A stretch of DNA of 64,000 nucleotides from Salvia splendens (taxonomy: Eukaryota; Streptophyta; Magnoliopsida; Lamiales; Lamiaceae). This document shows positions 6,050 through 54,800 of the stretch, in pieces. The notes under the pieces were generated by a model that was given only the letters and a program-made list of their open reading frames with translations, did no database searches and had not been told where the DNA came from. The first letter of the stretch is position 1. Each line of letters starts with the position of its first letter. The DNA lies in contig NC_056047.1 of assembly GCF_004379255.2 (NCBI RefSeq), positions 23,884,293-23,948,292 on the forward strand, written 5' to 3'. The translations under genes were made by a program, and so were the position numbers.

Positions 6050-6134
6050 TTACGAGTCGGCGCGCTGCAACGCGTCGCGTGACGGACCCGTCTCTCCGGG
6101 ACGCCGGCGCGCCGCGTAGTGGATGCTCTAACAC
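6050..6134. mobile_element. One end of a PIF/Harbinger-type element
   Basis: A GC-rich patch in AT-rich surroundings ends in 'gtagtggatgctc' followed by 'taa'. This resembles a PIF/Harbinger TIR (compare 'gagcatctccaatgg' of the element at 11347) with a TWA target site. The matching left end was not found, so it is a partial element. The rest of 5641-6200 is AT-rich with no gene. Confidence 0.35.
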
Positions 6135-6212
6135 TTAAAAGAAATAATTGTAATGGAACATCTGTAAAAAATAATGTTCCAACCCTAATATAATGAACAG
6201 AGCAATACAATA

Positions 6213-6382
6213 TTAATCTTGCTAAATTTATTTATCAACAGCAATTTAAAGATGATATATTCCAGCTTTGAAGGAGCACTTAAAAATTACTCCCACAAAA
6301 TTAATCTTGCTAAATTTATTTATCAACAGCAATTTAAAGATGATATATTCCAGCTTTGAAGGAGCACTTAAAAATTACTCCC
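6213..6382. repeat. 88-bp direct tandem duplication
   Basis: Bases 6213-6292 and 6301-6380 are essentially identical, period 88, both starting 'ttaatcttgctaaattta' and both running to 'aaaaattactccc'. The second copy merges into the Stowaway element starting at 6378. Confidence 0.9.
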
Positions 6383-6628
6383 TCTCTCTGTCTGTGATTA
6401 GAAGTTCTATTTTTTCATTTCAGTTTGTCGGTGAATAGGAATTCCGGTTCACTTTTACTATATATAGGTCCCACATTTCACTAACTCATTTCACTCACAT
6501 TTCATTTTAAACTAACATATATAAATGAGATTCATATTCCACTAACTTTTTCTCACCTACTTTTCTTAACATTTTTTAAAACTCTGCATAAAAAAAATAA
6601 TGAGACTCATATTCGCAGACAGAGGGAG
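6378..6628. mobile_element. Stowaway MITE
   Basis: The TIRs are ctccctctctctgtctg and, at the right, cagacagagggag. They are flanked by TA on both sides (6376-6377 and 6629-6630). The interior is AT-rich without coding capacity. Between its end and 7250 only AT-rich DNA is seen. Confidence 0.75.
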
Positions 6629-7439
6629 TATCCGTGAATGATATTCAATCTCTTCCTTATTCCACTTTAATAGACTTAAAAATTTCGCTTAATGGATTGA
6701 AGAACAATTTTGGAGGGTGTGTTTCAAGAAAAACTATTTTCAAAGATTGAAGAACTTGAAGCTCTTGTCTAGAAATTTTAAAAAATAAATCCGTATTATG
6801 ATATTATTTGCCAGAAATTTTTTCGTCGGTAGGAAATAACAAACTCGAGTAAAGTTCGTGATATAATTTGTCAAGTTCAAAGTTCGCGAAATAAATCCAA
6901 CTTTTTGAGAATTTCATGATGTGAGGGGCCAATATTCCTTAATCAAATCATAACTTTTGCACATTTCTCAATTATCTCATACAATTAAAATTTTGATGAA
7001 ATTTGTTGTGACTTTTATATCTATGTCATTATATCATCACCAATTACATTGATAATCATCTAAAATTAATTATAATAATATAGAATAATATTAAATTTAT
7101 TAAGAAGTTAACCCAAATTCATAATTTAAATAATAAATTTCATCAAAATTTTAATTATATAAAATAATTGAAAAATGTAGTATAAAATTATGATTTAATT
7201 ATAAGCAATCAAGTAAATCAAAAGTTATTTAAATTGAAATTTTCTCAATTTATTAATCATTATATTGACAAAAGGGAATAAATTGAACAGCTGCTCCATT
7301 TTCCGAAGCGCACACTAACGCACTGTAGAGAGAAATCTCCCAATCCGCCAAAATAGATTCCGATCGGAAGAGGAAGCCGTCGGCGGATCGCGCCGACCGC
7401 CACCATAAGCACAAGCACAGCGCCTCTAAAAAGTCCAAG

Positions 7440-18200: not shown

Positions 18201-19118
18201 TCGTGATGTTACTTGATGATTGGGCCAAAGCTAACGTCGGAGAATAAGAAAATGATTGGGATGATCGTCAGGATGAATCACAAGAAGAATTCACCGGGGA
18301 TGAATCGTAGGCCAACCGTCAACCGCCGGCTAAGCCAAATAGGTAAGTAAGGTAAGAGAACTACGTGGACTTTGATTCCCTAATCCAAATGAACATTGGA
18401 GATACATAAGCACCTCAACTTAAATTTTTAAATTTAAGTTGAGCTCAAGTCCTTTTTTCCTTTATTTTTTTCCATTTGTTTCTACTTTAAAAATATGCAA
18501 ATACAATTAAATAATTGTATTTGTATATGCTCTAGTCGATGAAATAGATTTCTCTATAAGGCTAAATCCGGGAAACTTTTGACAATTCTACTATAATTGT
18601 TGATTGTTAGACTAAACTCAACATTTAAAGTTGAATTGCTAAAGGTGTCCTCAATTTAGTTATGTAGAAAAATCTCCTTCGCCGACTAAGAGTATATATA
18701 CTTATAAAATTAATGTTCAGAACTTCTAAGTCTTTTTTTGTAATTCGTAATTAGCTTCGTTGATGACTAGTAGTCTCGTTGTATTTAAATTTTCGTTTAA
18801 GACTTCAAGACCTCAAGGTTTTTGTGATTTGTAATTGTTGTAACTTGTAATCTCAATAAAATTGCAACTTTAATCGTGTTTTTTTTGCATTTTATTTACG
18901 CACATTTCATAGATAAACAAATTAAAAAAATGCAAAAAAAAAATTTGACGAACTGCTGAACCGGCCCGGAACTGGCGGTTCAGGCCAAAAACCGGCGATT
19001 TTTTGAACCGGAACCACCGGGACCCTTGGCGGGCCGGTTCCGGTTCATGGGAATGATGAACCGTGAACCGCCGGTTCATGAACCGGAACCGGCGGTTTCC
19101 GACCCGTGTGCATGCCTA
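15231..19118 (+). mobile_element. hAT transposon, 3888 bp, with its own transposase
   Basis: The ends are taagcatgcacaaaccg and, inverted at the right, cgtgtgcatgccta. They are flanked by a perfect 8-bp duplication, GTCGTCAT at 15223-15230 and 19119-19126. Subterminal regions (about 15240-15560 and 18955-19100) are packed with 'gaaccggcggttc/aaccgccg' words in both orientations, probable transposase-binding sites. A transposase relic occupies the middle. The size, duplication length and coding content all fit an originally autonomous Ac-like hAT element. Confidence 0.93.
15832..18247 (+). pseudogene. hAT transposase, decayed
   Basis: The first exon ends near 15962 (REVMEEISRVAVERMQ), followed by an intron to 16066 and then IEEDHRMAMLLAEMHR. 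A frameshift in a seven-G run near 16120-16127 separates this from the main frame, which continues to 17701. The main frame holds a degenerate BED finger (YCNYCDKVYKFVSGGGYGT, with the His pair missing), the RNase H-like core with the first Asp in NICSDVWTD, and the C-x2-H-like HQRCICHILNLC. It ends in a stop at 17699, then shifts frame twice. The hATC dimerisation domain is read at about 17985-18230 (LDWWGTQEKDF...STVAVESAFSVGSLVLDGSRSKL). The usual second catalytic Asp in the 'DNASAN' motif is replaced (FYNATANT). Frameshifts plus this loss argue that it is inactive. Confidence 0.85.
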
Positions 19119-19505
19119 GTCGTCATCCATCATGATAAATAGCTAAAATTGCGATCAACACTACGATTAACTGATCTAAACACATGATACCGAATTACCA
19201 AAATGTTTAAGAAGATTGAGTCTTTAAAAATACAATGTTCAACATATTATAAGTGTGTCTGTATCCAATCAACTATGAACTCAATTTGATTTAAAAAGTA
19301 CATTTAATTTTGAATCATCATAAACAATCAAATATTTCGATTTAATAAGCAGTATACAACAGTTTGTAAATTAGACTACGAATGGTTCTGACTCAATCAG
19401 ATTTTCAAGAATTGTATACAATCAAGGCAATTGCAATGGATATTAGCAGTTATAAAGAGAATAAAAACCTAGGGGGTGGATTACAACAATAGAGCATAGC
19501 ATCAT

Positions 19506-20798
19506 CTACTTAAGAGTGCTGTAACGGTTCGTGCCATGCTTCGCCCAGTGGTCTTTGAGATCGAGGGGAGAGGAGAAGTCGTACCCCTCTCCAGCGAGTC
19601 GATTGAGCAGCTTGTTGAACGCACTCCCGCTCATCTTTCTCCCCCCAACTCTGGAGTAGCGTTTGTTCGCTACCTGAGGCAGTGGATACATTGAGATCGT
19701 GGTTGTACAGCACGCGGATTGCCAGCCGCCGTTCCCCCATCTGTAGCACGGCTGTGGCGAGCTTGTGCATGAGCAAACAGGGACTGGCATGGCTGATTCA
19801 TCGAAATTGATTTGGTTTAAACCCAGTTTATCCTTCCAGGAGACTTGCTTATCTAGGTACTCCTCGTCACTGTCCAAACCCTGCTCGTTACTCCAACCAT
19901 TGTACGCATCAGAATTTACCTCCTCTTTTACCACTGCTTCAGCAGTTCTTTTGCCTGCTCTCGGAGGCTTGGCTGATTTTGTCGCTTTTCCTTCTTTGTC
20001 TTTCGTCTGCCTCCCTCTCCGAGGCTTGGGGGTTTCGGCAGTCTCTGCAACAACAATTTCATTGCCTCGTAAGTTTCCTTTAGGACTATATCCAGCAACT
20101 TCAGAAACACACATTTGCTGTTGTTGCTGGTACTGGATGATATGTTTGCCCCCACTTGCATGCTCACTTCCATATGAATCAGGGATATCGGTGTTGTCGT
20201 TCATTGAGCTCTCTCGATATCGAAGAGAAGCAATCGCTTCATCCCGTTCTTGTATGGCAGCATTTCTTTCAGCAATTGCAGCATCCCTCTGTAACATTGC
20301 CATATCACGCTCTTGAAAAGCCCTCTTCCTCTCCTCCAATGCCATGTTCTTTTCTCGGATGGCAGCATCTCTGTCGGCCGTAATGGCCATAAAGGTTTTT
20401 ATTGTCAAGTGATTGTGGTCCTTCAGTAAAGCATGAAGTCAGTAAAAATAGCATCTGATGAAGATGAGTGGTCAAAACATACATTCACAGTATACCTATT
20501 TTCTTTTCATAGTTTACTACTCTCCTATTCCCCTAGCTACTAACCATCCTCGGATGCGTGGAAAGAGATGAAGATGAATAATGACAATATATTACTATTA
20601 ACTTATGGCCAACATTCTACATTTGGAAACTTTTTAATGGGTGGAAAAGAGTCATATCTTACATTATTTTACCCTACTCTTAACCAGTTGATATTTTCAG
20701 ACAGGTATGCATATAGAATATACTAATGTCTACAAGTCTACCACAATTGAGAATTAACACAGGCACCAAATGATTGTAAACAGCAATATTCATACCAT
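19506..20798 (-). CDS. BBR/BPC GAGA-binding transcription factor, group II, copy 1
   Basis: BASIC PENTACYSTEINE proteins are plant nuclear factors that bind GA repeats and recruit Polycomb-type repressors, among others. I model exons at 20798-20796 (ATG only) and 20420-19506 with a GT-AG intron between, giving [15 protein letters not shown] and a total of about 305 aa. An Ala-rich coiled coil comes first (about 14-70: [11 protein letters not shown]...[17 protein letters not shown]). A Gln run and a basic NLS-like stretch follow ([11 protein letters not shown], then [10 protein letters not shown]). Last is the DNA-binding domain with the five cysteines CSC-x5-C-x10-CC, then [23 protein letters not shown] and [13 protein letters not shown]. 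It differs from copy 2 at only about nine to ten residues. At the place where copy 2 has an unspliced ATG this copy has CTG, which favours the spliced start. It is probably functional, but its leader is deleted. Confidence 0.83.
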
Positions 20799-21963
20799 CA
20801 TTAACAGTAGTATTAGTCTAGAAGTCCATCCTCGAAGTGTCTTTTCCTGCAAGAGGCAAATAACATCATTCAGAAAACAAAGCTCAGCAAATGCAAAATA
20901 AACTATCAGCAGCTGATTTTTCTGCTGTTTGCATCAGGGCGTCTAATTAAACTTATACAACTCTATAATCCTAGCTACCAAAAAGCACTCAGTCACAACA
21001 CCTACTAGTCGTAGATGACATCAATTTAGTCTACAAGAGGAATGGTGAATTTGTTAATATTGATTACCAAATTCAAGGAAAGAAAGTGGGAAAGGAAATT
21101 TCACATACATTGCTCTCCTGATGGCTGATCAAGTTGAGAGTAGACAAATGGGAAGTTCCTATCGAAACTTTCAAATTTATCTGCCTCTATTGTGCCAATT
21201 AACAAGATAATGGAAATGGATAGGTAGAAAAATTAGGCGATCACTTAGGCAAAATGCCTGCAAAGAAGTGATTTTCGAAGCCATGATGCTTGATCGGGAA
21301 ATCTTGGTCAAGAAGCTTCTACAGTTCTACCTGCCAAATGCCACTGACTTAACTTCATTCTAACAGCTCATGATTTCAAATACAACCTCCCTCAAACACA
21401 TAACACAATGCGACATCCATTGAAAAGAAAATCGAGGAAAATTAACACTTAGTTAAGTAGAATAGATGGAGGATTCGAGCAGTTCATATCTATTCGAACG
21501 AACACATTAGAACAAAGAAAAAAAACAAATGCAGCTTCTTTTTCACGAGACGGAGTTAATTGGGTTGAGTTTGTAGCTCGAAGTAAAGCATCAAGTTAAC
21601 AATTCCCCATTTAGAGAATAAGAAAGCAGTAAAACAGCACAAAAAAATGATTACCTACTAAAACGCTGGAGTATGAATTCCCAAAGTAAATTCAATTGTC
21701 GATCTTCACATTTACCGACCAACATCAATTGACCGCTGTAGACAAATTGGCAGCTGTAAAACGACGATCAGAAGGTTGAAATGCTCAAGATCGGAAACAA
21801 GGAAACTCATTTCAAATAAATTAAACGATTATCGAGGATCGAGCTAGTAGATCGGGGAAAGAAGAACAAGTGACTTTCAACACAAACCAGAGAGGGGCTT
21901 CCGGCGATGAAGAGCTTCAGCTTCCTTAAATTGGGAATTCGGACCTGCGAAATGGCGTCGTTT

Positions 21964-24673: not shown

Positions 24674-24800
24674 CAAAAAGGAAAGAGCATCTTTTATTCT
24701 CTCGCCTGCAAACACGCACACTCAGCTCTCTTCTCTCCGGCGAAGAGAGGGGAGAGAGTGAAAGTAAGATTTCGAGAGAGAGAGAGAGAGAGCGTGAGCT
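24674..24800 (+). promoter_or_regulatory. Leader block with (GA)n tract, only in copy 2
   Basis: This is a purine/pyrimidine-biased stretch ending in an uninterrupted GA tract at 24774-24792, preceded by further 'gaagagagggga' and 'ggagagag' words. It is the probable transcription start and 5' leader of copy 2. In the other arm the flanking words 'gaattcccaatt' and 'aaggaagctgaagc' are directly joined, so the whole block is missing. BPC proteins bind GA-rich DNA, so self- or cross-regulation through this tract is possible; that is inference. Confidence 0.7.
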
Positions 24801-25974
24801 TAAGGAAGCTGAAGCTCTTCATCGCCGGTAGCCTCTCTCCGGTTTGTGTTGAAATTCAGTTGTGCTTCTTTCCCCGATCTACTAGCTCGATTCTCGATAA
24901 TCGTTTAATTTATTGCCAGGTTTTGAATTGAGTTTCCTTGTTTCCGATCTTGAGCATTCCAACCTTCTGATCTTCGTTTTACAGCTCGCAATTTGGTCGG
25001 TAATTGTGAAGATCGAAAATTGAATTTACTTTGGGAATTCATACACCGGCGATTTAGTTGGTAATCATTTTTTTGTGCTGTTTTACTGCTTTCTTATTCT
25101 CTAAATGGGGAATTGTTAACTTGATGCTTTACTTCGAGCTACAAAGTCAACCCAATTAACTCCGTCTGCATTAGCAGCTATTATGAACTGTGTTTTTTTT
25201 ATTTTCTATGCTGACTTTACTGTGTTTGTTTCGAATAGATATGAACTGCTCGAATCCTCCATCCATTCTACTTAATTAAGTGTTAATTTGCCTCGATTTT
25301 CTTTCCAAACGAGGCGCGTCTTGCTGTACAATTTCAATGGATGTCGCATTGTGTTATGTGTTTGAGGGAGGTTGTATTTGAAATCATGAGCTGTTACAAT
25401 GAAGTTAAGTCAGTGGCATTTGGCAGGTAGAACTGTAGAAGCTTCTTGGCCAAGATTTCCCGATCAAGCATCATGGCTTCGAAAATCACTTCTTTGCAGG
25501 CATCTTCCTTTTGTGCCTGCCTAAGTGATTGGCTAATTTTTCTACCTATCCGTTTCCATTATCTTGTTAATTGGCACAATAGAGGCGTTTAAAATTTGAA
25601 AGTTTTGATATGAACTTTCCATTTGTCTACTCACAACTTGATCGACCATCAGGAGAACAATGTATGTGAAATTTTCTTTCTCCCTTTCTTTCCTTGAATT
25701 TGGTAATCAATATTAACAAAATCACCATTCCTCTTGAAGACTGAATTGATGTTATCTAAGACTAGTAGGTGTTGTGATTGAGTGCTTTTTGGCGGCTATG
25801 ATTATATAGTTGTATAAATTTAATTAGGTACTTTAGTAGTTTTTGTTAGTACGCACTGATGCAAACAGCAGAAAAATCAGCTGCTGATAGCTTTGTTTTC
25901 TGAATGATGTTATTTGCCTCTTGCAGGAAAAGACACTTAGAGGATGGACTTCTAAACTAGTTCTACTGTTAAAG

Positions 25975-27251
25975 ATGGTATGAATATTGCAGTTTCAATC
26001 ATTCGGTGCCTCTGTTAATTTCTCAATTGTGGTAGACTTGTAGACAGTAGTATATTACGTGCATTCCTGAAAATTTCAACTGGTTAACTGTAGGGTAAAA
26101 TAGTGTAAGATATGATAAAAAAAAGTTTCCAAATGTAGAATGCGGCCATAGACCTTTTATGCAGAATATCATATTTTCTTGAGAATAGACTAATTAGTTG
26201 ATGTATTTTCTGCACAAGTTAATAGCATCTTCATCTCTTTCATGCATTACGAAAACAGGTATACTGTGAATGAATGTATGTCTAACCTCTCATCTTCATC
26301 AGATACTATTTTTACTGACTTCATGCTTTAATGAAGGACCACAATCACTTGACGATAAAAACCTTTATGGCCATCACGGCCGACAGAGATGCTGCCATCC
26401 GAGAAAAGAACATGGCATTGGAGGAGAGGAAGAGGGCTTTTCAAGAGCGTGATATGGCAATGTTACAGAGGGATGCTGCAATTGCTGAAAGAAACGCTGC
26501 CATACAAGAACGGGATGAAGCGATTGCTTCTCTTCGATATCGAGAGAGCTCAATGAACGACAACACAGATATCCCTGATTCATATGGAAGTGAGCTTGCA
26601 AGTGGGGGAAAACATATCATCCAGTACCAGCAACAACAGCAAATGCGTGTTTCTGAAGCTGCTGGATATAGTCCTAAAGGAAACTTACGAGGCAATGAAA
26701 TTGTTATTGCAGAGACTGCCGAAACCCCCAAGCCTCGGAGAGGGAGGCAGACGAAAGACAAAGAAGGAAAAGCGACAAAATCAGCCAAGCCTCCGAGAGC
26801 AGGCAAAAGAACTGCTGAAGCAGTGGTAAAAGAGGAGGTAAATTCTGATGCGTACAATGGTTGGAGTAACGAGCAGGGTTTGGACAGTGAGGAGGAGTAC
26901 CTAGATAAGCAAGTCTCGTGGAAGGATAATCTGGGTTTAAACCAAATCAATTTCGATGAATCAGCCATGCCAGTCCCTGTTTGCTCGTGCACAGGCGCAC
27001 CACAGCCATGCTACAGATGGGGGAACGGCGGCTGGCAATCCGCGTGCTGTACAACTACGATCTCAATGTATCCGCTGCCTCAGGTAGCGAACAAACGCTA
27101 CTCCAGAGTTGGGGGGAGAAAGATGAGTGGGAGTGCGTTCAACAAGCTGCTCAATCGACTCGCTGGAGAGGGGTATGACTTCTCCTCTCCCCTCGATCTC
27201 AAAGACCACTGGGCGAAGCATGGCACGAACCGTTACAGCACTCTTAAGTAG
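25975..27251 (+). CDS. BBR/BPC GAGA-binding transcription factor, group II, copy 2
   Basis: Modelled as ATG at 25975-25977, the last codon of an untranslated exon 25927-25977, spliced (donor gtatga) to 26337-27251. The protein is about 305 aa, [15 protein letters not shown] and onward. An alternative unspliced start ATG lies at 26331 and gives MKDHNHL with the same frame. Domains match copy 1: coiled coil at about 14-70, basic NLS region at about 130-165, and the pentacysteine DNA-binding domain at the C terminus ([20 protein letters not shown], then CC, and RVGGRKMSG to the final [10 protein letters not shown]). Further untranslated exons lie upstream from about 24700, so transcripts have a spliced 5' leader. 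Differences from copy 1 include SELAS/SEHAS, RVSEAA/CVSEVA, DSEEE/DSDEE, KDN/KDK and TGA/TSS. The minus-strand 183-codon frame over this gene is a shadow. Confidence 0.87.
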
Positions 27252-27816
27252 ATGATGCTATGCTCTGTTGTTGTATTCCATCCCCTAGATTTTTATTCTC
27301 TCTTTATAAATGCCATTGTAATTGCGTTGATTGGATTCGTAATCTAATATACAATCTGTTATATACTGCTTATTGGATCGAAATATGGCATTGCTTTAAA
27401 ATTAAATGGACTTTTTTTTCTTGTCTATCAGTAGCATTTGAAGCCGTTAATCAATTGAGTTCATAGTTGGTTGAATACACACGCACACACATATGGTTTA
27501 ATAACAATTTTCTTAATTTTCACATTAAAAATGAATATATGAAATATATTGGTGACGGAGAGAGCATTAGAATACAATCATTCAAATTATATCAAACTAT
27601 TATTTTATGAACAAAATATATCATTTTTGCTAAAATATCGTTGTATGCTGAATTTATATCATTCTAAAACTATCATTTTTATATAAACAAAAATAACATT
27701 TTATTGATTATAAACATCATTTTATACATTCAGAAAGAATATCATATTATTGAGTACAAACATCATTTTATACGTGCCGAAAGAAATACTACTATCATTT
27801 AATTGATTACAAATAC

Positions 27817-39717: not shown

Positions 39718-39778
<61 letters not shown>
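39718..39778. repeat. (TA)n microsatellite
   Basis: About 30 TA units directly abut the left end of the Pack-MULE-like element. A shorter TA tract abuts its right end (42390-42407). Confidence 0.95.
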
Positions 39779-39785
<7 letters not shown>

Positions 39786-39939
39786 TGATCTATGGCAAAC
39801 ACCTCTTAACCAAATAACTAGAGAACAAATAATAGCCACAAGATCAAAAAAATCAAGGGCTAGTATTAATTTTCGAATTTAATGAGATATTAGTTCCCTC
39901 AATCACAAATTTACTCCACAATAACAAGGCGGGGGTATA

Positions 39940-40275
39940 ATTGTCATTGCAGCCAAATCCTGCGTCGCCACCATCGTCAAACAGCTCAAACCTTCCCCGA
40001 CCTCCACAAACTAGCTCACCGCCTCCACCACCAAATCTGCCCCCGCGATATGCACCGTCACCGGCGGCGATTCAATCCCCTGCCCGCTCGAAACTTGTAG
40101 CATAAACCAAAAGTCCCCTGCGGATCGGTAGCCTTCTCCCCGTCGATCGCCTCCGCCAGCGCCGAAACCACCCCCTCGTAGATCTCCTGCGGCACGAACG
40201 TCAGCGTCGTCCCCGAATCGATGATGATGTTCCCCTCCTCTACCGATCCCCCAATTGAGCTTTCGAGGATGAGGC
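39940..40275 (-). pseudogene. Aspartyl protease (CDR1-like) fragment
   Basis: On the minus strand it reads EEGNIIIDSGTTLTFVPQEIY followed by VVSALAEAIDGEKATDPQGTFGLCYKF. After a frameshift it continues as ESPPVTVHIAGADLVVEAVS, then a stop, then FVEVGEGLSCLTMVATQD. This is the second catalytic motif (DSGTT) and downstream core of plant A1 aspartyl proteases of the CDR1/nepenthesin type. Only the C-terminal half is present and it is broken, so it makes no enzyme. It probably represents captured exon sequence. Confidence 0.8.
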
Positions 40276-40335
40276 AATATCAGTCCTCTTCTCTCTGACG
40301 CTGCTAGTGACCGATCCGACACTGCCCTCTGATGC

Positions 40336-40660
40336 CATGTTAAACTATATTGGGAAGAAGAAATTGAATTGGATTGCATTGTATTACATCATTTGGAGTA
40401 CCGAATACCTTAGTATATAGGTGGAGTTGGGGACTCTAAACAAAAATTAATCTTAGAACAATAATACTTTGGGACTAAACATTATCAATGCTAGGCTTTG
40501 GTACTCTAATATCTCTTTAACCACAATTATGCATTTTTTGGAAATGCTAAACACAATTGAGCAGAATCAATGGAATTAGAACAAAATGATAAACAAATAA
40601 GCAAGAATGAAGATTGGAAGAAAGCCCTAGTTTCATTAATTTGTGATTTGTAATTATAAC
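40336..40660 (-). repeat. Possible copia LTR end with primer-binding-like site
   Basis: On the minus strand the words 'tttaacatggcatcagagg' at about 40333-40351 resemble a copia LTR/primer-binding junction (initiator tRNA-Met type). They are preceded by a polyadenylation-like AT-rich stretch. No second end is visible. It could equally be chance or a gene start reading MASEGSVGSVTSS. Confidence 0.25.
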
Positions 40661-40772
40661 TTATCTATATGGGTACATAAAAATTGTGCTTAATTTGTGA
40701 TTTATGACTTGTCTATATTAATCGAGTACAATCAATAAGAAATTTGTGTTTTGTGTTGGTATTAACATTAAT

Positions 40773-41520
40773 GATTTTACTTCACTCTTGTTTACAAAAC
40801 ACATCACTCTTAGCATGATTTTACTTCACTCTTGTTTACAAAACGCATCACTCTTAGCAAGATTTTACTTCACTCTTGTTTACAAAACACATCACTCTTA
40901 TTATGATTTTACTTCACTCTTGTTTACAAAACACATCACTCTTAGCATGATTTTACTTCACTCTTGTTTACAAAACGCATCACTCTTAGCAAGATTTTAC
41001 TTCACTCTTGTTCACAAAACAAGAGTGAAGTAAGATCAGAATAAGAGTGATGTGTTTTGTGAACAAGAGTGAAGTAAGATCAGAATAAGAGTGATGTGTT
41101 TTGTGAACAAGAGTGAAGTAAGATCAGAATAAGAGTGATGTGTTTTGTGAACAAGAGAGAAGTAAAATCAGAGTAAGAGTGATGCGTTTTGTGAACAAGA
41201 GTGAAGTAGGATCAAAATAAGAGTGAAGTAGGATCAAAATAAGAGTGACGTGTTTTTTGAACAAGAGTGAATTAAAATCAGAATAAGAGAGACGTGTTTT
41301 GTGAACAAGAGTGAAGTAAGATCAAAATAAGAGTGATGTGTTTTGTGAACAAGAGTGAAGTAAAATCAAAATAAGAGTGAGGTGTTTTGTGAACAAAAGT
41401 GAAGTAAAAACAGAATAAGAGTGATGTATTTTGAGAACAAGAGTGAAGTAAAATCAGAATAAGAGTGATGTGTTTTGTAAACAAGAGTGAAAAAAATCAT
41501 GCTAAAAGTGATGTGTTTTG
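40773..41520. repeat. 44-bp tandem array that reverses direction (giant fold-back)
   Basis: Six units of exactly 44 bp start at 40773, 40817, 40861, 40905, 40949 and 40993 (each 'gattttacttcactcttg' and on). At about 41015-41020 the array turns around through a palindrome (cttgttcacaaaacaag), and about eleven units of the reverse complement follow to about 41520, again every 44 bp, with one partial 22-bp duplication near 41205-41235. In the left half, variants alternate so that units 1-2 equal units 4-5, a 132-bp higher-order pattern. Open frames over it are repeat artefacts. The transcript would form a long hairpin. Confidence 0.95.
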
Positions 41521-41719
41521 TAACCTTATGTAATTTGTTACACTTTCTTAGAGCCATCAATATACAAGCTGTCATGATTATAACATAATCTACAGATTAA
41601 TCATTGGTACAATTGAATCTGGCCTCGAAAGTCATGAAAAATAAGGACTAATTTTTCTCCTACTACTATTTTTATTTTATTAATATTGCTTGTTAATGAT
41701 TACGTACTTATAATTTAAA

Positions 41720-41905
41720 GGAACATTCCCAATTAACCACAGACACCGCCTTCTCGTCCCCTCCATCACCAAAGCATGCGCCCATTCCCAATCTCCCCGC
41801 ATTCTCGGCCGCCATCTCCACTGCAACGCCGTCAAACTCGGCTTCACTTCAGATTTCACCGTATCGAACTCGCTGCTATCCATGTACGCCAAATTGTCCG
41901 ACACG
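41720..41905 (+). pseudogene. PPR protein gene fragment
   Basis: One frame reads PSITKACAHSQSPRILGRHLHCNAVKLGFTSDFTVSNSLLSMYAKLSDTGRA (quoted in parts: SITKACAHSQSPRILGRHLH, KLGFTSDFTVSNSLLSMYAK). This is the characteristic order of a PLS-class pentatricopeptide repeat protein. It is about 60 codons with no start and no continuation, so it is a captured or decayed fragment. Confidence 0.7.
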
Positions 41906-42197
41906 GGCAGAGCTGACCGCCGGAATCCCCACTCCTCGCTTCGGCCACCTGACGCAGTTGGAGGACGAGGCGGCGTACGTTGATGCTTCCTAGATAAGGC
42001 GCCCCCTGGAGGGCTGATCGCGTTGTGCCGACGTTGATCCCGGTGAGTCCGACGTAGAGGTACAGCCACCGACGGACTATGCATACAGCGCCAGAGCCGA
42101 AGAAGTCGACGAGATCACCACAGACGGCGGCGGTGCAGCCGTCGGAGCCGTCTGAGAAGGCGTCGGAGTGGGCGGCGGTGGGGAGGCGGAGGGTCAC
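41906..42197 (-). other. GC-rich unknown open frame
   Basis: An open frame on the minus strand (it begins MTLRLPTAAHSDAFSDGSDG and includes LVDFFGSGAVCIVRRWLYLY and LTGINVGTTRSALQGAPYLG) overlaps the PPR fragment at its far end. I do not recognise a family. The GC content and low-stop composition suggest another captured coding fragment, but plus-strand frames are also open, so it is unproven. Confidence 0.3.
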
Positions 42198-42388
42198 AAC
42201 CGAGCCCGACAGTCACTTGGCATATTCACATTCATGTATTGAGTTCCCAAAATGCCCTTGGACAAGTTTTTTTCATAAAAATCTAAAAGTTTGTTTAAGC
42301 CATAGGATTAATTTGGAGTATTAAGATGTGTGGCTGAGATTTATTCTCTAGTTATACACTTAAAATTAGTTATATCTTGATCAGTACC

Positions 42389-42411
42389 ATATATATATAT
42401 ATATATAAAAC
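42389..42411 (+). promoter_or_regulatory. Possible TATA region of the GAD gene
   Basis: An alternating TA tract ends in tatataaaa about 55-75 bp before the GAD start codon and directly beyond the Pack-MULE-like right end. If used, the 5' leader would be only about 25-45 bp. Motif only. Confidence 0.35.
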
Positions 42412-42465: not shown

Positions 42466-45400
42466 ATGGTTCTCTCGAAGGCGGCTTCCCAGTCAGATGT
42501 GTCGGTCCACTCGACTTTCGCTTCGCGATATGTTCGCCACTCTCTCCCCAGGTAAATATACAAATTCAAATTCAAATTCAAATTCAAATTCAAATTAATG
42601 GTCAATTAGGTATAAGATGTCGGAGAATTCGATCCCGAAGGAAGCAGCGTACCAGATCATCAACGACGAGCTGATGCTGGACGGAAATCCGAGGCTGAAT
42701 CTCGCCTCCTTCGTCACCACCTGGATGGAGCCGGAGTGCGATAAGCTGGTTTTGGCCGCCATCAACAAAAACTACGTCGACATGGATGAATACCCCGTCA
42801 CCACCGAGCTACAGGCCAGTCATTTTTCTCCCCAATTTCACTTTTTTTTTTTTTTATCTACATGCTTTATTTCAACTTTTTTTTATCTTAATTTTAATTA
42901 TATTATTATGCATTGAAAGTCCGACAAACTGTATCTCATAACGACTCACCTAATCATTTTCTTTTATCATTTATTTGCCAATATATTTAACTAATAATGT
43001 AATACCCGAAAATTTGTGGAATTTTATTCTTTTACTTAAGGATGAAATTCTTTTCTATGTTTTTGTGTTTATTTGATTGTTGTGGATGTGGTATTTTCTA
43101 CCTAGGCAAATTAAATGTAATTAAATAATTAATTAAGCCATGTGTTTAAAAATCCTAATTAAAATTAAATCTCTCTCTCTCTCTCTCTCTCTCGGTTTCT
43201 CACCCCCTCCCCACTAATTTCTCAACCTCCCCCACTCCCTCTTAACCGATACATCTTTCCCTTTCCAATCTCTCCCCACATCGTTTTCTCTCCTTTCTCT
43301 CTTGCAATTGCTCTCAACACCGGTAAGCTCCCTCTCTCCTTCTCCCTCTCGGTTCTCATCTTTTTCATTCACTCCCTCTCATCATCGTCTTGAATTCCTC
43401 AAGGTGATACCCTCCTTCGTCGTGAATCGGAGTCGGAAAAGGAAGTAAAGCTTTTGCGTTTCGTTTGAACCATCCGGGGAAGGTAACCCCTAACCCTTGT
43501 TTAATTCGAAAACTCATGCATATAGGACGTTTTTGGATGGGTTAGATGTTGAGTAGGATTTGTGGCTATGTGCTTGTGTTGAACATGTTTTTGATAGTAA
43601 CTGGCAGTGGGTTCCGACCCCTTTTTAACTGAGCAAACGACCTCCTTTTGGTACGATTTTTTTAACTGTATAAACTTTGGTGTGTCTTCTGTGTGGTGTG
43701 TAATTTTCAGCCTCTTTGGATGTCGTATGAATTTATTATGATTTTTGCAAGTAAACTGCGCAGTTCTGCGTGTGGTGTGTTCTGGGTGATGTTTTCATGT
43801 GCAATGGTTGGGTTTCTGAGTGTTATGTTTTTGTGTTGAATGTGGGTGTGTTTGGCCAAGAGATGGCTCGGGAAAATCTGTGTTTGGCTCAAGGGTTTTG
43901 TGTGGGTTGGCCGAGAGATCTAGGGTCCGGCCTAGGGCAGGCTGGTGGGAAGTTTTGAAGGGACGATCCCAGGTGTTTGGGTGTGTTTTGGGACGTAGAA
44001 TGCGTGGTGGGAATGTCGTATAGGGTTTGAGAATCGGAAGTTGAAGGAAAGTGAGTGTACACGGAACCAGCGGCCGAGGTGCCGAACAGATGGCCGAGGT
44101 GCCGAACAGACGGCCGAGGTGCCGAGCATAAGATGCCGAGGTGCCGAGCAGGCGGCCGAGACGGTCGGTCGAGGTGCCGAGCCGGACGGCCGAGATGGTC
44201 GGCCGAGGTGCCGAACAGGCGGCCGAGACGGTCGGCCGAGGTGCCGAGCCGGACGGCCGAGATGGTCGGCCGAGGTGCCGAGCTGTGCCGAGACAGGTGT
44301 CGAGCTGTGCCGAGATAGGTGCCGAGCTATGCCGAGACAAGTGCCGAGCTGTGCCGAGACAGGTGCCGAGCTGTGCCGAGACAGGCGGCCGAGGTGCCGA
44401 GCCAGGCGGCCGAGACGGTCGGCCGAGGTGCCGAGCCAGGCGGCCGAGACGGTCGGCCGAGGTGCCGAGCCAGGCGGCCGAGGTGCCGAGCCAGGCGGCC
44501 GAGATGGTCGGCCGAGGTGCCGAGCCAGGCGGCCGAGACGGTCGGCCGAGGTGCCGAGCCAGGCGGCCGAGACACCGAGCCAGGCCGAGACGCCGATCCT
44601 TTTTCCGAGCTTTTTCCGAACCTTTTCCGAGCCAAGTGAGCCGTTGCACAGTAAGGGTATGCCAGGACTTGGAGTGCTGTGTTCGTGTGTCGTGTGCGCG
44701 TTTTGGGTACGTCGTTTGCGTGCGGGGTGTGTTTCGAACGTGTGACTTTGTGTGTTGTTTTGTAATATGTTGTTAAGTGTGCGTTCGTGTAACGTGCTAG
44801 ATGTTGAAGTCGTCCACGTAGGAATCATGCATTGTCGTTTAAACCTCGTTTACCCTGACTCTAATCATGATATTATTTATCTTTCAAAAGGGTGATCTTT
44901 TTCGAGGAAAGTGTGGTTGAAGGGAACTGTTTTAAAAGCTAAGCAATCGAGGTGGGCTTTTCTACCCTACTTTTATGTGGGTTATCTTTAAATACGGACT
45001 TTGTTCCGGAAATGTTTATGGAGGTGAACTGTTTGTCTTGCCAATTATTTTGTTTTGAAACCTATCTGAAGTGGTTTACCACATATGTTTAATCGAATTC
45101 GGGTCTGTTGGGCTGCGAACCCTCAGGCTAGTGTACACGAGACTGGGTGCCATCTGAGAGCAAGTTGGCCGGTCTAGATGACCTGGGGTGTGGCCACGCC
45201 CCTTGTCATGGTTTGGATCAGATAGTGTATGATTGAGGGAATAAGGGTGGCAATATCGGAAAATGACTGCGCAGTCGAATTTATGAAATGTGTTTTGTGT
45301 ACTTGGGTTATTTTCATTATACTCAAAACCCCAATGTTACACTGTTATGGCATGACAAACTTTGTTTTTGGCGTGTGTCCACTGAGTGCATTAAGTACTC

Positions 45401-48400
45401 AGCCCTGCATGTTGTTTTCTTAATGTGCAGGTTGAGCGGCGATGGGGAGGACGGATGTTGAGCAGTTAAAGCCAAAGTGTGTTTTTATCTTTTGGATGGT
45501 GTCGTGTCGTCATACCCGGCATCATCTGTCTTTGGGTCTTTTCCGCTGCTTGTAAACCGTCACGATGTTTTCATTTAAAACTCTGAATACTTTAACTCAA
45601 GAATGTCGTCACAGTACTTTGTTTTGAATTGAATTTCCTTTTATTAAATGTTTTGGGTCAAATATTCTTGTTACCCCCCTTTCTTCCCCGCTTCTTTATT
45701 CCCCCCCTAGTCGCGGTCCACCGTACTTCCTATCCTTAGGAAATGCGGGCGTGACAGAGTGGTATCAGAGCCTAGGTTTTCTCTTTCTGCTCTGGACCCA
45801 AAAAAATTCTTTTTCTGACTGGAGTAAGTTTTCAAAAGTGTCATTGGCTCAACATCCGACTCATCGCACTCAACCAGAAATGAGGTAATGAAAATTTCGA
45901 AATTTTGGAAAGTATATGGAAGTGGAGGAAATTGTGATTTTGGTGTTGAAAATGATTTTTTTATGTAAAGTTTAAGTAAATGTTGAGACATGTGGAAGGG
46001 TACAACGTGATGTGGAAAAGTTGGAAATTATTTGAGTTATGAACTGTTAGGGTGTTATGAACTGTTGATGTATGATGAACTTATATGGAAGCATGTGGCT
46101 GATGTGTGATGATATGATGACGTGAATGTTGATGTGAGCTTTTATGTGAGTATGTGTTGGCCTTTTGAATGTTTGAACTTAGACGTGATAGAATTTCACT
46201 AGTGCTTCTTGGACCTATGATAGATAAAAGCTTTTGGCCTTTGAACACCAGCGGGTTTGGGTTGGAACAGCGATACGTACACTCTCTCTCTCTCTCTTCT
46301 TCGGTTATGCACTCTGTTTTTATACGCGAGGCGGTTGTTTCTGTTTTTCTATAGATGGCGCGTATGTTCCGAACCCCGCGACGGAGTGATCGCGATAGAC
46401 TTAGGGCACAGAGGGTGCTCAGAGATTATAGAGTGTACCGAAAGAAGGATCATGTACCGTTGATCGAGTTCGTGGCACACTTCGACACCCTCTGGAGGGC
46501 AGCTCAGGAGTTCGGAGTGACAGAGCATGACGGCATTGAGAAGCTAATAGATTTGCTTCCCGATAGCTGGAAGGAGTGGGCCGAAAGAACGGCGAGGAGG
46601 TACACGTGGCATGAGCCCGCTACCGATGACATGGTGGGTGACATGGCTGGCTTTCGGAAAGCCGTGTATTGTGCACTGGTGGACTCTCGAGAGGAGCAGC
46701 CCCCACAGGAGGTGGAAGAGAGGGTCGTGTATCAGGATAAGTATGTGAGCATGTACGAGGGTGAACAAGGGTATGAAGATGATTATGAGGAGGCTCTGCC
46801 AGGGAACTCCGAGGAGGACGACGACGAAGACCCGGAGGAAGGGCCTATGGATGAGGATGATAGAGTCGTAGTCTAGAATTAGAATAGTTCGTTGTCTTTT
46901 CAGTTTTTGCTTTCTGTACGATCTACTCTTGGGAACAATGTTGGCCTTCTTTCTTTTAATGAGAATTTTGATTTTGATTTATATCCTATGTGTTGCATCT
47001 TATACTACATGAAGGTTTTATAAGAAAATTTTGAGAAAGTGGTAATTTTGGATGAGAATTGTAGTAACACTTTTTGGATATTGAATCAGAATGCCGCCAA
47101 GACGTGCACGCCAACCACGACAAGAACCCCACGTGGAGGCACCACCTCCACCACCTCCACCACCACCACCTCCACCCCCGCCTCAACAAGAAAGGTTCAT
47201 AGTTACGTTCTCAAGGCAGAATCCCCCAAAATTTGACGGACAAGGAGACCCATCCAAAGCGGAAGAGTGGATACGCGGCCTCGAGCGTATCTTCAGGGTC
47301 ATGGAGTGCACAGATAGGGAGCGCATTGCTGGTGCTACCTTTCAACTGTTAGGTGCTGCCGATTACTGGTGGGAGACTCGGCAGAGAACTATGGATCCTG
47401 CACGCCTGGAGGCGCTAACATGGGAGGAGTTTAAGGTGGAGATTGACAACAAGTATGTTCCAAAGACGTACAGACGGGCCAAGGTGGTAGAGTTCCACAC
47501 ACTAAGCCAAGGCCGAATGACTGTAACCGAGTATGACCGAGCCCTCGCGCAGATGGCACGATATGCGCCCGAGTTGATGGACACCGATGAGAAATGGGCG
47601 GTGAAGTTCCGGGCCGGGCTCAGAGATGAGATAAAGGCCGCATTGGCCTGTCGAGGAGAACTCTCCTACTCGGAGATCTTGACTTGTGCACTGGACGTGG
47701 AAGATGCACTCCCTAAGCCAAGAGTTGTGGCAACAACAAACGCGACACCTCTACAAGCTCAGCCGGGCCACCAAGAGAAGAGGAGGTGGGATGGTGACCA
47801 GGCTCAGTATGGTGGTAAGAGGCCACAACACATGAGGAACCCACCCTACAATGGCGGGAGACAGAATACTTTCCAACCGAGGGCAAACTTTCCGCCGAGG
47901 AACCCTCAATGTGGAAGGTGCTTCAAGTACCACGCCGGGGAGTGTCGAGACCCTAGGTGCTTCAACTGTGGTGGGAGTGGCCACTACATCCGAAATTGCC
48001 CAAACAAGCACATGGGAACGGGAACGAGACAGAACCAGCTAGGTTTCCGTCCACAATCCCAGGCACTACCTGCACCTCCACCGCAACAACGCCGCCAAGG
48101 ATTACCATCGCAAGCAAGGGCCTACGCCTTGAAGGGGAAACAGCCGGCAAACGGGAAAGAAACCTTTGAGCAAGGAAACTTGGCAGGTATGGGCACACTT
48201 CTCAATATGCCTATAGTTGTCTTGTTTGATACGGGTGCGTCGCATTCCTTTATATCAACGTCTTGTGTGGATACTTTGGAATTACCTACTGTTAAGACCG
48301 AACCCACTATGAGTGTGACCTCACCGGTAGGCGGGGCTATAGATATATCCCGATCTTGTGCATGTGTGAACTTTGGAATAGGTGAACTCAGTTTAGTGGC

Positions 48401-51400
48401 TTATAATTTGCAAGTAATGACGATGGGTAGCGTAGACATAATCTTGGGTATGGATTGGTTAGCGGAGAACCACGTTACCCTTCATTGTAGAGAAAGGAAA
48501 ATTTCGTTTGAAACCCCCGGAAAAGAGCCGATGAAGTTTCACGGAGTCCCAATGAGCCGACGCAAGTCCATTATCTCTGCGCTGCAAGCCACTACAATGA
48601 TGAGGAAGGGATGTCCAGCGTACCTTGTTTATTTGAATGGGGAGGAGAAGAAAGACAGGAAGATAGAAGATGTGGCGATAGTGAGTGAATATCCCGACGT
48701 CTTCCCCGATGCGTTGCCAGGACCCCCACCCGACAGACAGGTAGAATTCACGATCGATCTGGAGCCCGGATCGGCACCAATATCCAAAGCACCTTATAGA
48801 ATGGCACCAAAAGAGTTGGAGGAGCTTAAGGTGCAACTGCAAGAGCTATTGGAATTGGGATTCATTAGACCTAGCGTGTCACCATGGGGAGCACCAGTGT
48901 TGTTCGTAAAGAAGAAGGATGGAACGATGAGGATGTGCATCGACTATCGGGAGCTAAACAAACTAACGCTGAAGAACAAGTATCCACTACCAAGGATAGA
49001 CGACTTGTTTGACCAACTTCGAGGGGCAGGAGTCTTCTCTAAGATGGATTTGAGGTCTGGGTACCATCAGCTGAGGGTTCGGCGAGAAGATGTACCCAAG
49101 ACAGCTTTTCGAACAAGATATGGTCATTATGAGTTCGTTGTAATGCCTTTTGGACTGACGAACGCCCCGGCAGTGTTCATGGACCTTATGAACCGCGTGT
49201 TCCATCCATTTCTGGATCGGTTTGTCCTGGTTTTCATCGATGACGTGCTTGTTTACTCAAAGAACGAGGAGGAGCACAAAGAGCACTTGAGAACCGTCCT
49301 AGCAACTCTAAGGGACGAGAAACTATATGCCAAGTTCAGTAAATGCGAGTTTTGGCTCAAGGAAGTAAATTTTCTTGGACATGTAGTAACTTCAGATGGA
49401 ATTCGTGTAGATCCGGCCAAGGTAGAAGCGGTGCAGGAGTGGAAGTCACCTTCTACACAAAACGAAATCCGAAGCTTTTTAGGACTGGCGGGCTATTATC
49501 GAAGATTCATCGAGGGATTCTCGAAGATAGCAAGGCCAATGACGCAACAACTGAAAAAGGGAGTCAAGATGATTTGGACGCCAGAATGTGAGGCGAGCTT
49601 TCAGTTGTTGAAGGAGAAATTGACCACCGCACCAATCCTAGCTGTGCCGGAGCCAGAGACTGACTATGCGGTATATACGGATGCGTCGAAGGTGGGACTG
49701 GGATGTGTGCTTATGCAGAAGGGGAAAGTGATTGCATATGCATCGAGACAATTGAAGCCCCATGAACTGAATTATCCGACGCATGACTTGGAACTGGCAG
49801 CTGTGGTACATGCTTTGAAGATCTGGAGACATCATCTTTATGGAGTCCGTTGTGAGATATACACGGACCATAAGAGTCTAAAGTACTTCTTTGAGCAAAA
49901 GGAGCTGAATATGCGCCAACGTAGGTGGCTCGAGTTGGTAAAGGACTACGATTGTGGTATAAATTACCATCCGGGAAAAGCAAACGTAGTGGCCGATGCT
50001 CTTAGTAGGAAGTCTCAATCTCAGCTGGCCACCTTTCTTACTATCGAGGAGAGTTTAATCCAAGAGTTCAGTAAGATGCGGTTGGAAGTAGTGAGAATGC
50101 CCGAGACTGTGGAAGGAATAGTAGCCACGTTGGTGATGGAACCCGACTTAAGAGCCAAAATTGTAGAAGCTCAACGGCGAGATACGTTACTAGAGAAGAT
50201 TCGCTCAGAAGTGAGGACGGGTGAACTCGGAAATTTTCGTGAGGCAGCGGATAATGGTCTCACATACAAGGGAAGGTTGTGTGTGCCTAAGGATGAAGGC
50301 CTGAGGATGGAAATCATGAGAGAAGCACATGAAACCCCATACGCTGCTCATCCAGGGAGCACCAAAATGTATCAAGATTTGAAAAGACAGTTTTGGTGGA
50401 ACGGTATGAAAAAGCATGTTGCGGTATTTGTGGAGAGATGCCTAGCATGTCAACAAGTAAAGGCGCTACACCAACGGCCCTATGGGAAATTGCAACCCCT
50501 CGAGATTCCGGAATGGAAGTGGGAACATATTGCAATGGACTTTGTGGTAGGACTGCCAAAATCCCAGCGAGGGAACACGGTGATTTGGGTGATTATAGAT
50601 CGCCTCACCAAATCTGCCCATTTTGTGCCGGTTCGTGCCACTTATGGATCCGATCAGTTGGCTAAGGTATATGTACGGGAAATTATACGCTTGCATGGAG
50701 TCCCAGCGACAATCACATCTGATCGTGATGCTAAATTCACTTCTAGATTTTGGACAAGCCTGCAGCACGAGTTGGGGACTAAGTTGAATTTCAGTACAGC
50801 TTTCCACCCACAAACCGACGGGCAGTCGGAGAGAACAATTCAAGCCTTAGAGGATATGCTGCGAGCCGTGGTGCTAGATCGAGGCGTAGGTTGGGAAGAA
50901 GTGTTGCCCCTGGTAGAGTTCGCTTACAATAATAGTTACCAGGCGACTATCAAGATGGCCCCATATGAGGCTTTGTATGGAAAGAAGTGTAGGTCGCCAC
51001 TTTATTGGGATGAAGTGGGTGAGAGAAGAATTCTCGGACCAGACTCTGTAGAAGAGATGATAGAGATTGTCCGACAAATCCGTGGGAGGATCAAGGAGGC
51101 ACAAGATCGACAGAAATCTTATGCGGATGTTCGAAGGACCGACTTACAGTTCGAGGTCGGGGAAAAGGTCTTTTTGAAAGTTTCCCCTTCTAAGGGAATA
51201 ACTCGTTTTGGAGTGAAAGGAAAACTGAGACCCCGATTTATCGGTCCATACGAGATTTTGGATAGAGTCGGCGTGGTAGCATACAGATTGGCCCTACCAC
51301 CAAGCTTCGGAAATGTGCACAACGTCTTCCATGTGTCACAATTGAGGAAGTATGTGTACGACCCCACACACATCGTTCACCAAGAAGAAATGATGGTCCT

Positions 51401-51788
51401 AAATCCCGATCTAAGCTATGAGGAGAAGCCCGAGGCCATTGTGGATCGAAGAGTGCAAGAATTGAGGAATAAGTCAGTTGTTTCGGTGAAGGTACGGTGG
51501 AGGAATCATGGAATCGAAGAAGCAACATGGGAATTAGAAGATAAGATGAGAGAGAGGTTTCCAGAGCTGTTTGAGTAATCTAACAAATTTCGGGACGAAA
51601 TTTTTGTTAAGGTGGGAGGAATGTAATACCCGAAAATTTGTGGAATTTTATTCTTTTACTTAAGGATGAAATTCTTTTCTATGTTTTTGTGTTTATTTGA
51701 TTGTTGTGGATGTGGTATTTTCTACCTAGGCAAATTAAATGTAATTAAATAATTAATTAAGCCATGTTTTTAAAAATCCTAATTAAAA

Positions 51789-51824
<36 letters not shown>

Positions 51825-54800
51825 TTCTCACCCCCTCCCCACTAATTTCTCAACCTCCCCCACTCCCTCTTAACCGATACATCTTTCCCTTTCCAATCTC
51901 TCCCCACATCGTTTTCTCTCCTTTCTCTCTTGCAATTGCTCTCAACACCGGTAAGCTCCCTCTCTCCTTCTCCCTCTCGGTTCTCATCTTTTTCATTCAC
52001 TCCCTCTCATCATCGTCTTGAATTCCTCAAGGTGATACCCTCCTTCGTCGTGAATCGGAGTCGGAAAAGGAAGTAAAGCTTTTGCGTTTCGTTTGAACCA
52101 TCCGGGGAAGGTAACCCCTAACCCTTGTTTAATTCGAAAACTCATGCATATAGGACGTTTTTGGATGGGTTAGATGTTGAGTAGGATTTGTGGCTATGTG
52201 CTTGTGTTGAACATGTTTTTGATAGTAACTGGCAGTGGGTTCCGACCCCTTTTTAACTGAGCAAACGACCTCCTTTTGGTACGATTTTTTTAACTGTATA
52301 AACTTTGGTGTGTCTTCTGTGTGGTGTGTAATTTTCAGCCTCTTTGGATGTCGTATGAATTTATTATGATTTTTGCAAGTAAACTGCGCAGTTCTGCGTG
52401 TGGTGTGTTCTGGGTGATGTTTTCATGTGCAATGGTTGGGTTTCTGAGTGTTATGTTTTTGTGTTGAATGTGGGTGTGTTTGGCCAAGAGATGGCTCGGG
52501 AAAATCTGTGTTTGGCTCAAGGGTTTTGTGTGGGTTGGCCGAGAGATCTAGGGTCCGGCCTAGGGCAGGCTGGTGGGAAGTTTTGAAGGGACGATCCCAG
52601 GTGTTTGGGTGTGTTTTGGGACGTAGAATGCGTGGTGGGAATGTCGTATAGGGTTTGAGAATCGGAAGTTGAAGGAAAGTGAGTGTACACGGAACCAGCG
52701 GCCGAGGTGCCGAACAGATGGCCGAGGTGCCGAACAGACGGCCGAGGTGCCGAGCATAAGATGCCGAGGTGCCGAGCAGGCGGCCGAGACGGTCGGTCGA
52801 GGTGCCGAGCCGGACGGCCGAGATGGTCGGCCGAGGTGCCGAACAGGCGGCCGAGACGGTCGGCCGAGGTGCCGAGCCGGACGGCCGAGATGGTCGGCCG
52901 AGGTGCCGAGCTGTGCCGAGACAGGTGCCGAGCTGTGCCGAGATAGGTGCCGAGCTATGCCGAGACAAGTGCCGAGCTGTGCCGAGACAGGTGCCGAGCT
53001 GTGCCGAGACAGGCGGCCGAGGTGCCGAGCCAGGCGGCCGAGACGGTCGGCCGAGGTGCCGAGCCAGGCGGCCGAGACGGTCGGCCGAGGTGCCGAGCCA
53101 GGCGGCCGAGGTGCCGAGCCAGGCGGCCGAGATGGTCGGCCGAGGTGCCGAGCCAGGCGGCCGAGACGGTCGGCCGAGGTGCCGAGCCAGGCGGCCGAGA
53201 CACCGAGCCAGGCCGAGACGCCGATCCTTTTTCCGAGCTTTTTCCGAACCTTTTCCGAGCCAAGTGAGCCGTTGCACAGTAAGGGTATGCCAGGACTTGG
53301 AGTGCTGTGTTCGTGTGTCGTGTGCGCGTTTTGGGTACGTCGTTTGCGTGCGGGGTGTGTTTCGAACGTGTGACTTTGTGTGTTGTTTTGTAATATGTTG
53401 TTAAGTGTGCGTTCGTGTAACGTGCTAGATGTTGAAGTCGTCCACGTAGGAATCATGCATTGTCGTTTAAACCTCGTTTACCCTGACTCTAATCATGATA
53501 TTATTTATCTTTCAAAAGGGTGATCTTTTTCGAGGAAAGTGTGGTTGAAGGGAACTGTTTTAAAAGCTAAGCAATCGAGGTGGGCTTTTCTACCCTACTT
53601 TTATGTGGGTTATCTTTAAATACGGACTTTGTTCCGGAAATGTTTATGGAGGTGAACTGTTTGTCTTGCCAATTATTTTGTTTTGAAACCTATCTGAAGT
53701 GGTTTACCACATATGTTTAATCGAATTCGGGTCTGTTGGGCTGCGAACCCTCAGGCTAGTGTACACGAGACTGGGTGCCATCTGAGAGCAAGTTGGCCGG
53801 TCTAGATGACCTGGGGTGTGGCCACGCCCCTTGTCATGGTTTGGATCAGATAGTGTATGATTGAGGGAATAAGGGTGGCAATATCGGAAAATGACTGCGC
53901 AGTCGAATTTATGAAATGTGTTTTGTGTACTTGGGTTATTTTCATTATACTCAAAACCCCAATGTTACACTGTTATGGCATGACAAACTTTGTTTTTGGC
54001 GTGTGTCCACTGAGTGCATTAAGTACTCAGCCCTGCATGTTGTTTTCTTAATGTGCAGGTTGAGCGGCGATGGGGAGGACGGATGTTGAGCAGTTAAAGC
54101 CAAAGTGTGTTTTTATCTTTTGGATGGTGTCGTGTCGTCATACCCGGCATCATCTGTCTTTGGGTCTTTTCCGCTGCTTGTAAACCGTCACGATGTTTTC
54201 ATTTAAAACTCTGAATACTTTAACTCAAGAATGTCGTCACAGTACTTTGTTTTGAATTGAATTTCCTTTTATTAAATGTTTTGGGTCAAATATTCTTGTT
54301 ACCCCCCTTTCTTCCCCGCTTCTTTATTCCCCCCCTAGTCGCGGTCCACCGTACTTCCTATCCTTAGGAAATGCGGGCGTGACAAATAAATTCAATAATA
54401 TGCACAAATTTGGGAATACAATATCAATATGTGTATATATTGGTGGTACAATTAATTTTGTGCAAACTGAGACCTACAACTCCTCGACGACGGTTGGTGA
54501 TCACTGATCACATTCCATGATACAGATTAACATTATTTAATTTCTACACCATTTGGTTCTTCTCATTTAATAAATGTGGACAATTGGACTACGTGTAGAC
54601 AAAGGAAAGTTACAAACAATTTTTAATTATCGAAGAACTTTTGCACCAATACAAAAAGTCTAGTGAGAGAAAGTAGGGACCAACTACTTATCGACGAGTG
54701 GATGTCATCCTATACAATTTCAACGGAGTGTGAGTGAATAGATCCTTGATTTTTTTTATGTTATTTCATACGAGTATTTAATTCTTTTGATTTCCAACAA

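Follow-up and report, generated by a model that had tools for sequence, protein, structure and literature searches.

The array of 44-bp repeats that inverts on itself within the window (the whole 64,000-nucleotide stretch of Salvia splendens DNA analysed here) is probably a minisatellite inside a Mutator-like (Pack-MULE-type) transposon, one that is non-autonomous, present in high copy number and inclined to insert into (TA)n. A block of the array would have been turned round once, in the founder of a subfamily, at a 4-nt microhomology, and then transposed to five copies. The locus is real and is mostly explained by ordinary transposon biology, and the preliminary description of it, made from the sequence alone, is confirmed as an observation and partly supported in its interpretation.

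The inverted array and its host transposon

Tandem Repeats Finder (TRF) resolved a left arm (40771–41021) with 5.7 copies of period 44 at 94% matches, and a right arm running in the opposite direction with ~11.4 units of the same period, starting at 41018 and ending at 41499 or 41521 in overlapping rows, which bears out the preliminary description of an array inverting on itself. The 132-bp higher-order pattern described for the left half is also real, since units 1 and 4, as well as units 2 and 5, are identical. A palindrome had been placed at 41010–41030; it is present, with its centre corrected to the spacer at 41013–41017 and its perfect arms to 40997–41012 and 41018–41033. The right arm contains one 22-bp half-unit slip (41194–41237) and a 1-nt deletion (inside 41480–41501). 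Comparison of its units with the left arm revealed no significant trend with distance from the centre (Spearman −0.17, p 0.44); of the B halves, it is R20 and R22, far from the centre at the outer end, that resemble the left arm most. The two 22-mer halves of the 44-mer match at 13 of 22 positions, a figure equalled by 1.3% of shuffles at the best rotation; it is no more than suggestive of a 44-mer derived from two 22-mers.

With three mismatches at most allowed, a 20-nt half-unit pattern matched the window 30 times, 29 of them in the array (shuffle mean 0.62, n=100). The claim that the unit matches nothing else in the window thus holds apart from a single place, 63785, with three mismatches. 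Under one scoring, the best inverted repeat measured 241 nt in the array vs at most 15 nt in ten comparison stretches, seven of which were tandem arrays of the window. Searches of viral and prokaryote collections with the 44-bp unit gave no matches, Rfam gave none over the window at gathering scores, and a literature text search with the letters of the unit did not find it, the sole match being an En/Spm-like motif in a Klebsiella paper on another topic.

The array lies within a non-autonomous DNA transposon of ~2.6 kb (39780–42388; 2609 bp in the window copy), whose ends are GGG-starting terminal inverted repeats (TIRs) lying inside a (TA)n microsatellite. The following features were mapped (strand given where it applies):

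39718–39779: (TA)31 microsatellite that flanks the element on the left and was probably its target (TRF; TA runs occur around other copies too)
39780–39951, + strand: conserved left end, its outer ~80 bp being the left TIR, starting GGGTAGTGATC (genome matches; inverted match to the right end)
40061–40279, − strand: aspartic-protease-type gene fragment, presumably captured (Pfam TAXi_C match that passes its cut-off, E 7.2e-9)
40338–40767: three-piece mosaic, presumably captured (genome matches to the pieces)
40771–41021, + strand: left arm, 5.7 × 44 bp, mostly type-1 units with the 132-bp higher-order repeat; putative turned-round block
41013–41017: 5-nt spacer CACAA, palindrome centre, common to all five subfamily copies
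41018–41021: 4-nt overlap of the arms, AACA (TRF borders and sequence), read as junction microhomology
41018–41521, − strand: right arm, ~11.4 × 44 bp, type-2 units with the outermost type-1-like; usual orientation of the family
41714–41980, + strand: possible PPR-type gene fragment (translation judged by eye)
42201–42388, − strand: conserved right end with the right TIR, reading inward on the − strand as GGTACTGATCAAG (inverted match to the left end)
42389–42408: (TA)n, right flank

A Pfam search of the possible PPR-type fragment gave no match.

The two ends were traced in the plant's own genome (806 Mb, 1162 contigs). The left-end region has at least 41 matches at 81–100% (40 of 1492 candidates scored), and the exact left-end 25-mer has 202 copies. 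For the right end, a family 25-mer from which the window copy differs at two positions has 186 copies; the reversed control of each 25-mer occurs nowhere. The TIRs align in inverted orientation from their first bases, with matches in 57 of 95 columns in the window and 57 of 91 in L047, and the inverted match of the left to the right end covers 79 bp at 75%. Among 100 + 100 listed places of the 202 + 186, 24 inward-facing left–right pairs were spaced at 1.66–7.5 kb vs three same-strand pairs; 22 of the 24 were at most 3.21 kb apart, and five spanned 2040–2043 bp. As a unit, window positions 39762–42407 recur at C1:33.56M (97.4% over 2676 bp) and positions 39766–42407 at C7:24.42M (95.1% over 2651 bp), each with different flanks. 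Four further loci (L013, L014, L016 and L018) have in common with the window just both end regions, L014 slightly more, with the array between.

The element prefers TA repeats: (TA)n flanks were found at seven of eight loci inspected and, among 20 others, at all 13 that contain the exact left-end motif. The copy in L047, where the TA run is interrupted, is bounded by a direct repeat of 10 bp, TACATCCCTA, and L013, outside TA repeats, has no clean 9–10-bp target duplication by eye. At the array edges the best candidate duplication was the 8-mer pair TAACATTA/TAACCTTA, which 24% of 300 random zone pairs equal; it was rejected and became moot once the true ends had been mapped.

The sequence between the ends varies. 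Among 17 genome matches to the 40338–40767 mosaic, only the five subfamily copies have it whole; the 12 others are partial and correspond, in its own coordinates, to about 24–175, 179–302 and 299–430, with one at 362–415. This segment has TGTTAA/TTAACA ends, and the stretch beside it resembles a tRNA-Met primer site; its identity as an LTR was rejected, its pieces lying apart in the 12 other matches. In L018, the sequence that separates the left end from the array is unmatched by the other family loci compared.

Of 86 Pfam MULE matches (of 150 listed), one was less than 15 kb from any of the ends compared (200 of 388), and it lay outside the element, so that comparison yielded no transposase-encoding partner. 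A 7.5-kb candidate for the autonomous element, L046 (C4:33582600–33590400), proved to be a family member with a nested copia-type retrotransposon that has an open 1345-aa polyprotein frame. Three other loci (L017, L044 and L045) are composites in which left-type ends face inward ~4.3–4.7 kb apart with two arrays between them.

The repeat across the family and its relation to known systems

The preliminary description had pointed to the genome-wide copy number of the unit as a check. The 44-bp array has at least 391 scored matches in the genome (23 of 1889 candidates scored), and it was present in 20 of 20 loci that were chosen as the best-matching left ends, the window copy included, with sequence taken to ~1.5 kb beyond the end. 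In these elements the array begins about 0.7–1.1 kb inside the left end. Long arrays of the unit occur on contigs C19, C1, C8 and C3. In L012 (C1:23371000–23380999) the unit fills positions 5–9959 of 10000, matches run on to 23382263, and the array is satellite-like, with a variant order that recurs. The term satellite-like, used earlier for the array in the window, suits such long arrays elsewhere; in the window the repeats make up the inner part of a DNA transposon of ~2.6 kb. Most likely it grows and shrinks by its tandem nature and sometimes expands, as in L011 and L012.

Mutator-like elements (MULEs) have long TIRs at their extreme ends, as the present element does; they duplicate 9–11 bp of target sequence and are mobilised by a mudrA/MULE transposase. 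Pack-MULEs have conserved ends around differing gene fragments. The family resembles Pack-MULEs in carrying gene fragments between conserved ends (the aspartic-protease-type fragment, the three-piece mosaic and the L018 stretch) and is unlike them in having a 44-bp minisatellite at every one of the 20 loci chosen by left end. Membership of the Mutator superfamily is likely.

As described in the available part of its report (PMC4486113), MuTAnT of Medicago truncatula comprises non-autonomous Mutator-like TIR elements in (TA)n microsatellites, with a 9-nt target duplication outside TA repeats, 90% of elements measuring 200–300 bp, the TIR GGGGTTTGCTAGAACA and a known autonomous partner. Like MuTAnT, the present element is a non-autonomous TIR element inserted into (TA)n, with ends that start with a G run. 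Judged against that part of the report, it differs in its TIR, which begins GGGTAGTGATC (by eye), in its size of ~2.6 kb, and in its minisatellite array, a feature not described there; the lists compared here also yielded no autonomous partner. The direct repeat around the one copy in L047 measures 10 bp.

Two other kinds of element were considered and rejected. CACTCTTA resembles an En/Spm (CACTA/TnpA) motif; no CACTA occurs in 40301–42000, however, the one TAGTG at 40305 lies inside the element, and the mapped ends read GGGTAGTGATC. Subterminal motifs vary widely in soybean, according to the accessible portion of PMC2613891. A foldback element was rejected because the tandem repeats are internal and do not form the TIRs. 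Foldback-type transposons do have inverted, internally tandem TIRs, and in one of them, Tetris, TIR-220 repeats seeded satellite DNA (PMC4079207, in the text at hand). The present family shares with Tetris the transposon-borne tandem repeats and the longer arrays elsewhere, whereas the repeats of Tetris lie within its TIRs. That the inverted arms are themselves terminal inverted repeats of a Tetris- or Galileo-like transposon is highly improbable, as the element termini lie 0.9–1 kb outside the arrays and differ from them in sequence, and as the array has a single orientation in the 15 non-subfamily loci chosen by left end. Short transposon-borne arrays that occasionally expand are also reminiscent of the Ogre LTR-retrotransposons of Lathyrus, whose internal tandem repeats gave rise to satellites in the section of PMC7004042 consulted; there the carrier is a retrotransposon, and here it is a DNA transposon.

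The system joins a TA-targeting, gene-fragment-carrying DNA transposon, a minisatellite found at all 20 loci and kilobase satellites of the same unit, three features usually seen apart. It allows the passage of transposon-borne repeats into satellites to be watched, together with the birth and inheritance of a palindrome.

Origin and spread of the inversion

Five copies of the element (in the window and on C1, C7, C12 and C15) contain both array orientations, and all five carry the aspartic-protease cargo. Their junction core is identical, the contigs and flanks differ, and the exact junction with the C-containing spacer occurs at only these five places in the genome. In each, a reversed block of type-1 units lies proximally, and the type-2 part keeps the usual orientation. 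An identical core in different surroundings argues for a single inversion event spread by transposition and against an assembly artefact, which the preliminary description had entertained as the refuting case, with a single-orientation array behind it; the comparison is one of assembled loci, not of reads. Tandem repeats often misassemble, and an array falsely inverted or collapsed would belong to that kind of error. The differing arm lengths of the five loci, and arms that differ at ~13–15% of positions, unlike a mirrored read, make the chance of this negligible. The left part differs by 0.3–1.1% over 984–993 bp between four of the five copies (all but C15), and therefore the spread was probably recent.

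In the preferred sequence of events, the array block in the subfamily founder would have been turned round, either flipped in place or pasted as an inverted copy, after a break or template switch that healed at the 4-nt AACA microhomology and so created the palindrome. The rearranged element would then have transposed to give the five copies with identical junction core, and unit slippage would have let the arm lengths drift among them. Support for turning in place comes from 25 array starts in non-subfamily elements: the first unit always ran the usual way, and in 19 (many of them near-identical copies) the earliest unit that could be classified was of type 1, as in the left arm. The 15 non-subfamily loci have a single orientation relative to the left end within the ~1.5 kb examined. 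The phase of the proximal edges, which lie 0–36 nt upstream of the first A half, varies and so lends no support to an in-place flip.

Several observations count against a turned-round block. The other six array starts (L016, L018, both of L028, L031 and the second of L011) are of type 2. Among the top 12 matches to the left arm, two of which have no known orientation, the best match is proximal, near the left end, in L013, L014, L017 and L046, which favours turning in place, but not in six loci (L011, L019, L028, L032, L037 and L045), and the best in the family reaches only 95.6%. Two orientations also occur in L016, the usual one first and the reversed after it, and L045 has a second array that runs in reverse with respect to the left end closest to it. 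The missing clean target duplication in L013 and the failure to find a transposase among the matches compared weigh against the wider explanation, that of a Mutator-like element.

The main rival is fold-back (snap-back) priming, in which a strand would have folded back on itself at TGTT/AACA inside a single unit and been copied from there, each arm then being the inverted copy of its partner. The 5-nt spacer and 4-nt overlap are what a TGTT–CACAA–AACA fold predicts. Moreover, a one-letter variant of the junction, with a T in the spacer, is found at a sixth place, in an unrelated copy (L048, C371:153400–156800), where an otherwise usual array has about one half-unit inverted at its proximal edge, in the same geometry; this is a possible recurrence at the same microhomology. 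However, the arms differ in unit type (type 1 in the left, type 2 in the right) and the right arm is in the family's usual orientation, so a turned-round block fits better. Later homogenisation inside each arm could mask a common origin. We regard fold-back priming as possible, though doubtful.

Hairpin potential and neighbourhood

A hypothetical transcript of the array would fold into a hairpin of 234–246 bp with 85–87% pairing, short of the more than 250 bp of near-perfect pairing claimed earlier. Around the centre, 199 of 234 positions (85%) form Watson–Crick pairs, rising with G-U pairs to 210 on + strand RNA and 204 on − strand RNA, and the best offset arm pair measures 246 nt at 87%. For 40767–41525, the minimum free energy of the predicted + strand fold is −379.6 kcal/mol, with longest stems of 41 bp including G-U pairs, and that of the − strand fold is −326.3 kcal/mol, with stems of at most 33 bp. 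Among the five copies, the number of paired positions out of the first 234 is 199 in the window and C1, 156 in C15, 126 in C12 and 68 in C7, the last being low because a 1-nt shift breaks the register.

A hairpin transcript is possible in the turned-round subfamily, and so is the dicer substrate suggested in the preliminary description. A bolder reading would make this a natural hairpin-RNA locus, whose read-through transcript is diced to siRNAs that silence array-bearing family members in trans, as in the maize locus Mu killer, an inverted duplication in a Mutator element that is proposed to work in this way in the available part of PMC3440606. The predicted folds of both strands and the inverted arrangement within a probable Mutator-like element are in its favour. 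Mu killer, however, inverts transposase gene and TIR sequence (same source, same part), whereas the arms here are neither of these but a non-coding minisatellite. The arms pair at only 85–87%, and in three of the five copies they are shortened or out of register, which indicates that the hairpin is not kept intact. We consider this reading unlikely. Less likely still, to the point of being speculative, is that the five copies form a dispersed Mu-killer-like trans-silencer, in which siRNAs from the hairpin, aided by G-U pairs on the + strand, would act on hundreds of array-bearing transposons and on the long satellites of the unit, and which would spread by transposition alongside them. The single-orientation siblings offer built-in controls for small-RNA comparisons. 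As internal non-coding sequence of a transposon, the array most likely does nothing for the host.

Glutamate decarboxylase coding sequence can be recognised ~0.2 kb downstream of the element's end, and the element, judging from this position, could conceivably affect that gene. The window has further repeats and genes. Between the glutamate decarboxylase coding parts (42599–42913, and 56183 onward) sits a young Ty3/gypsy retrotransposon (42998–54384) with AATAA on both sides, ~2.76-kb LTRs that are 99.8% identical, each with a GC-rich tandem array, and an ORF for a 1495-aa polyprotein in which a chromodomain was matched. The hAT transposase-like ORFs at 16166–18247 comprise a first without a Pfam match and a second with Dimer_Tnp_hAT. 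The BASIC PENTACYSTEINE6-like protein of the window shares 96% identity with a cluster that bears the name of Salvia hispanica, in line with a Salvia-like plant. Its gene region is present as two inverted copies (19293–21929 and 24800–27416) that are 85% identical over 2.7 kb, and the latter, the only one searched, has a Pfam GAGA_bind match.
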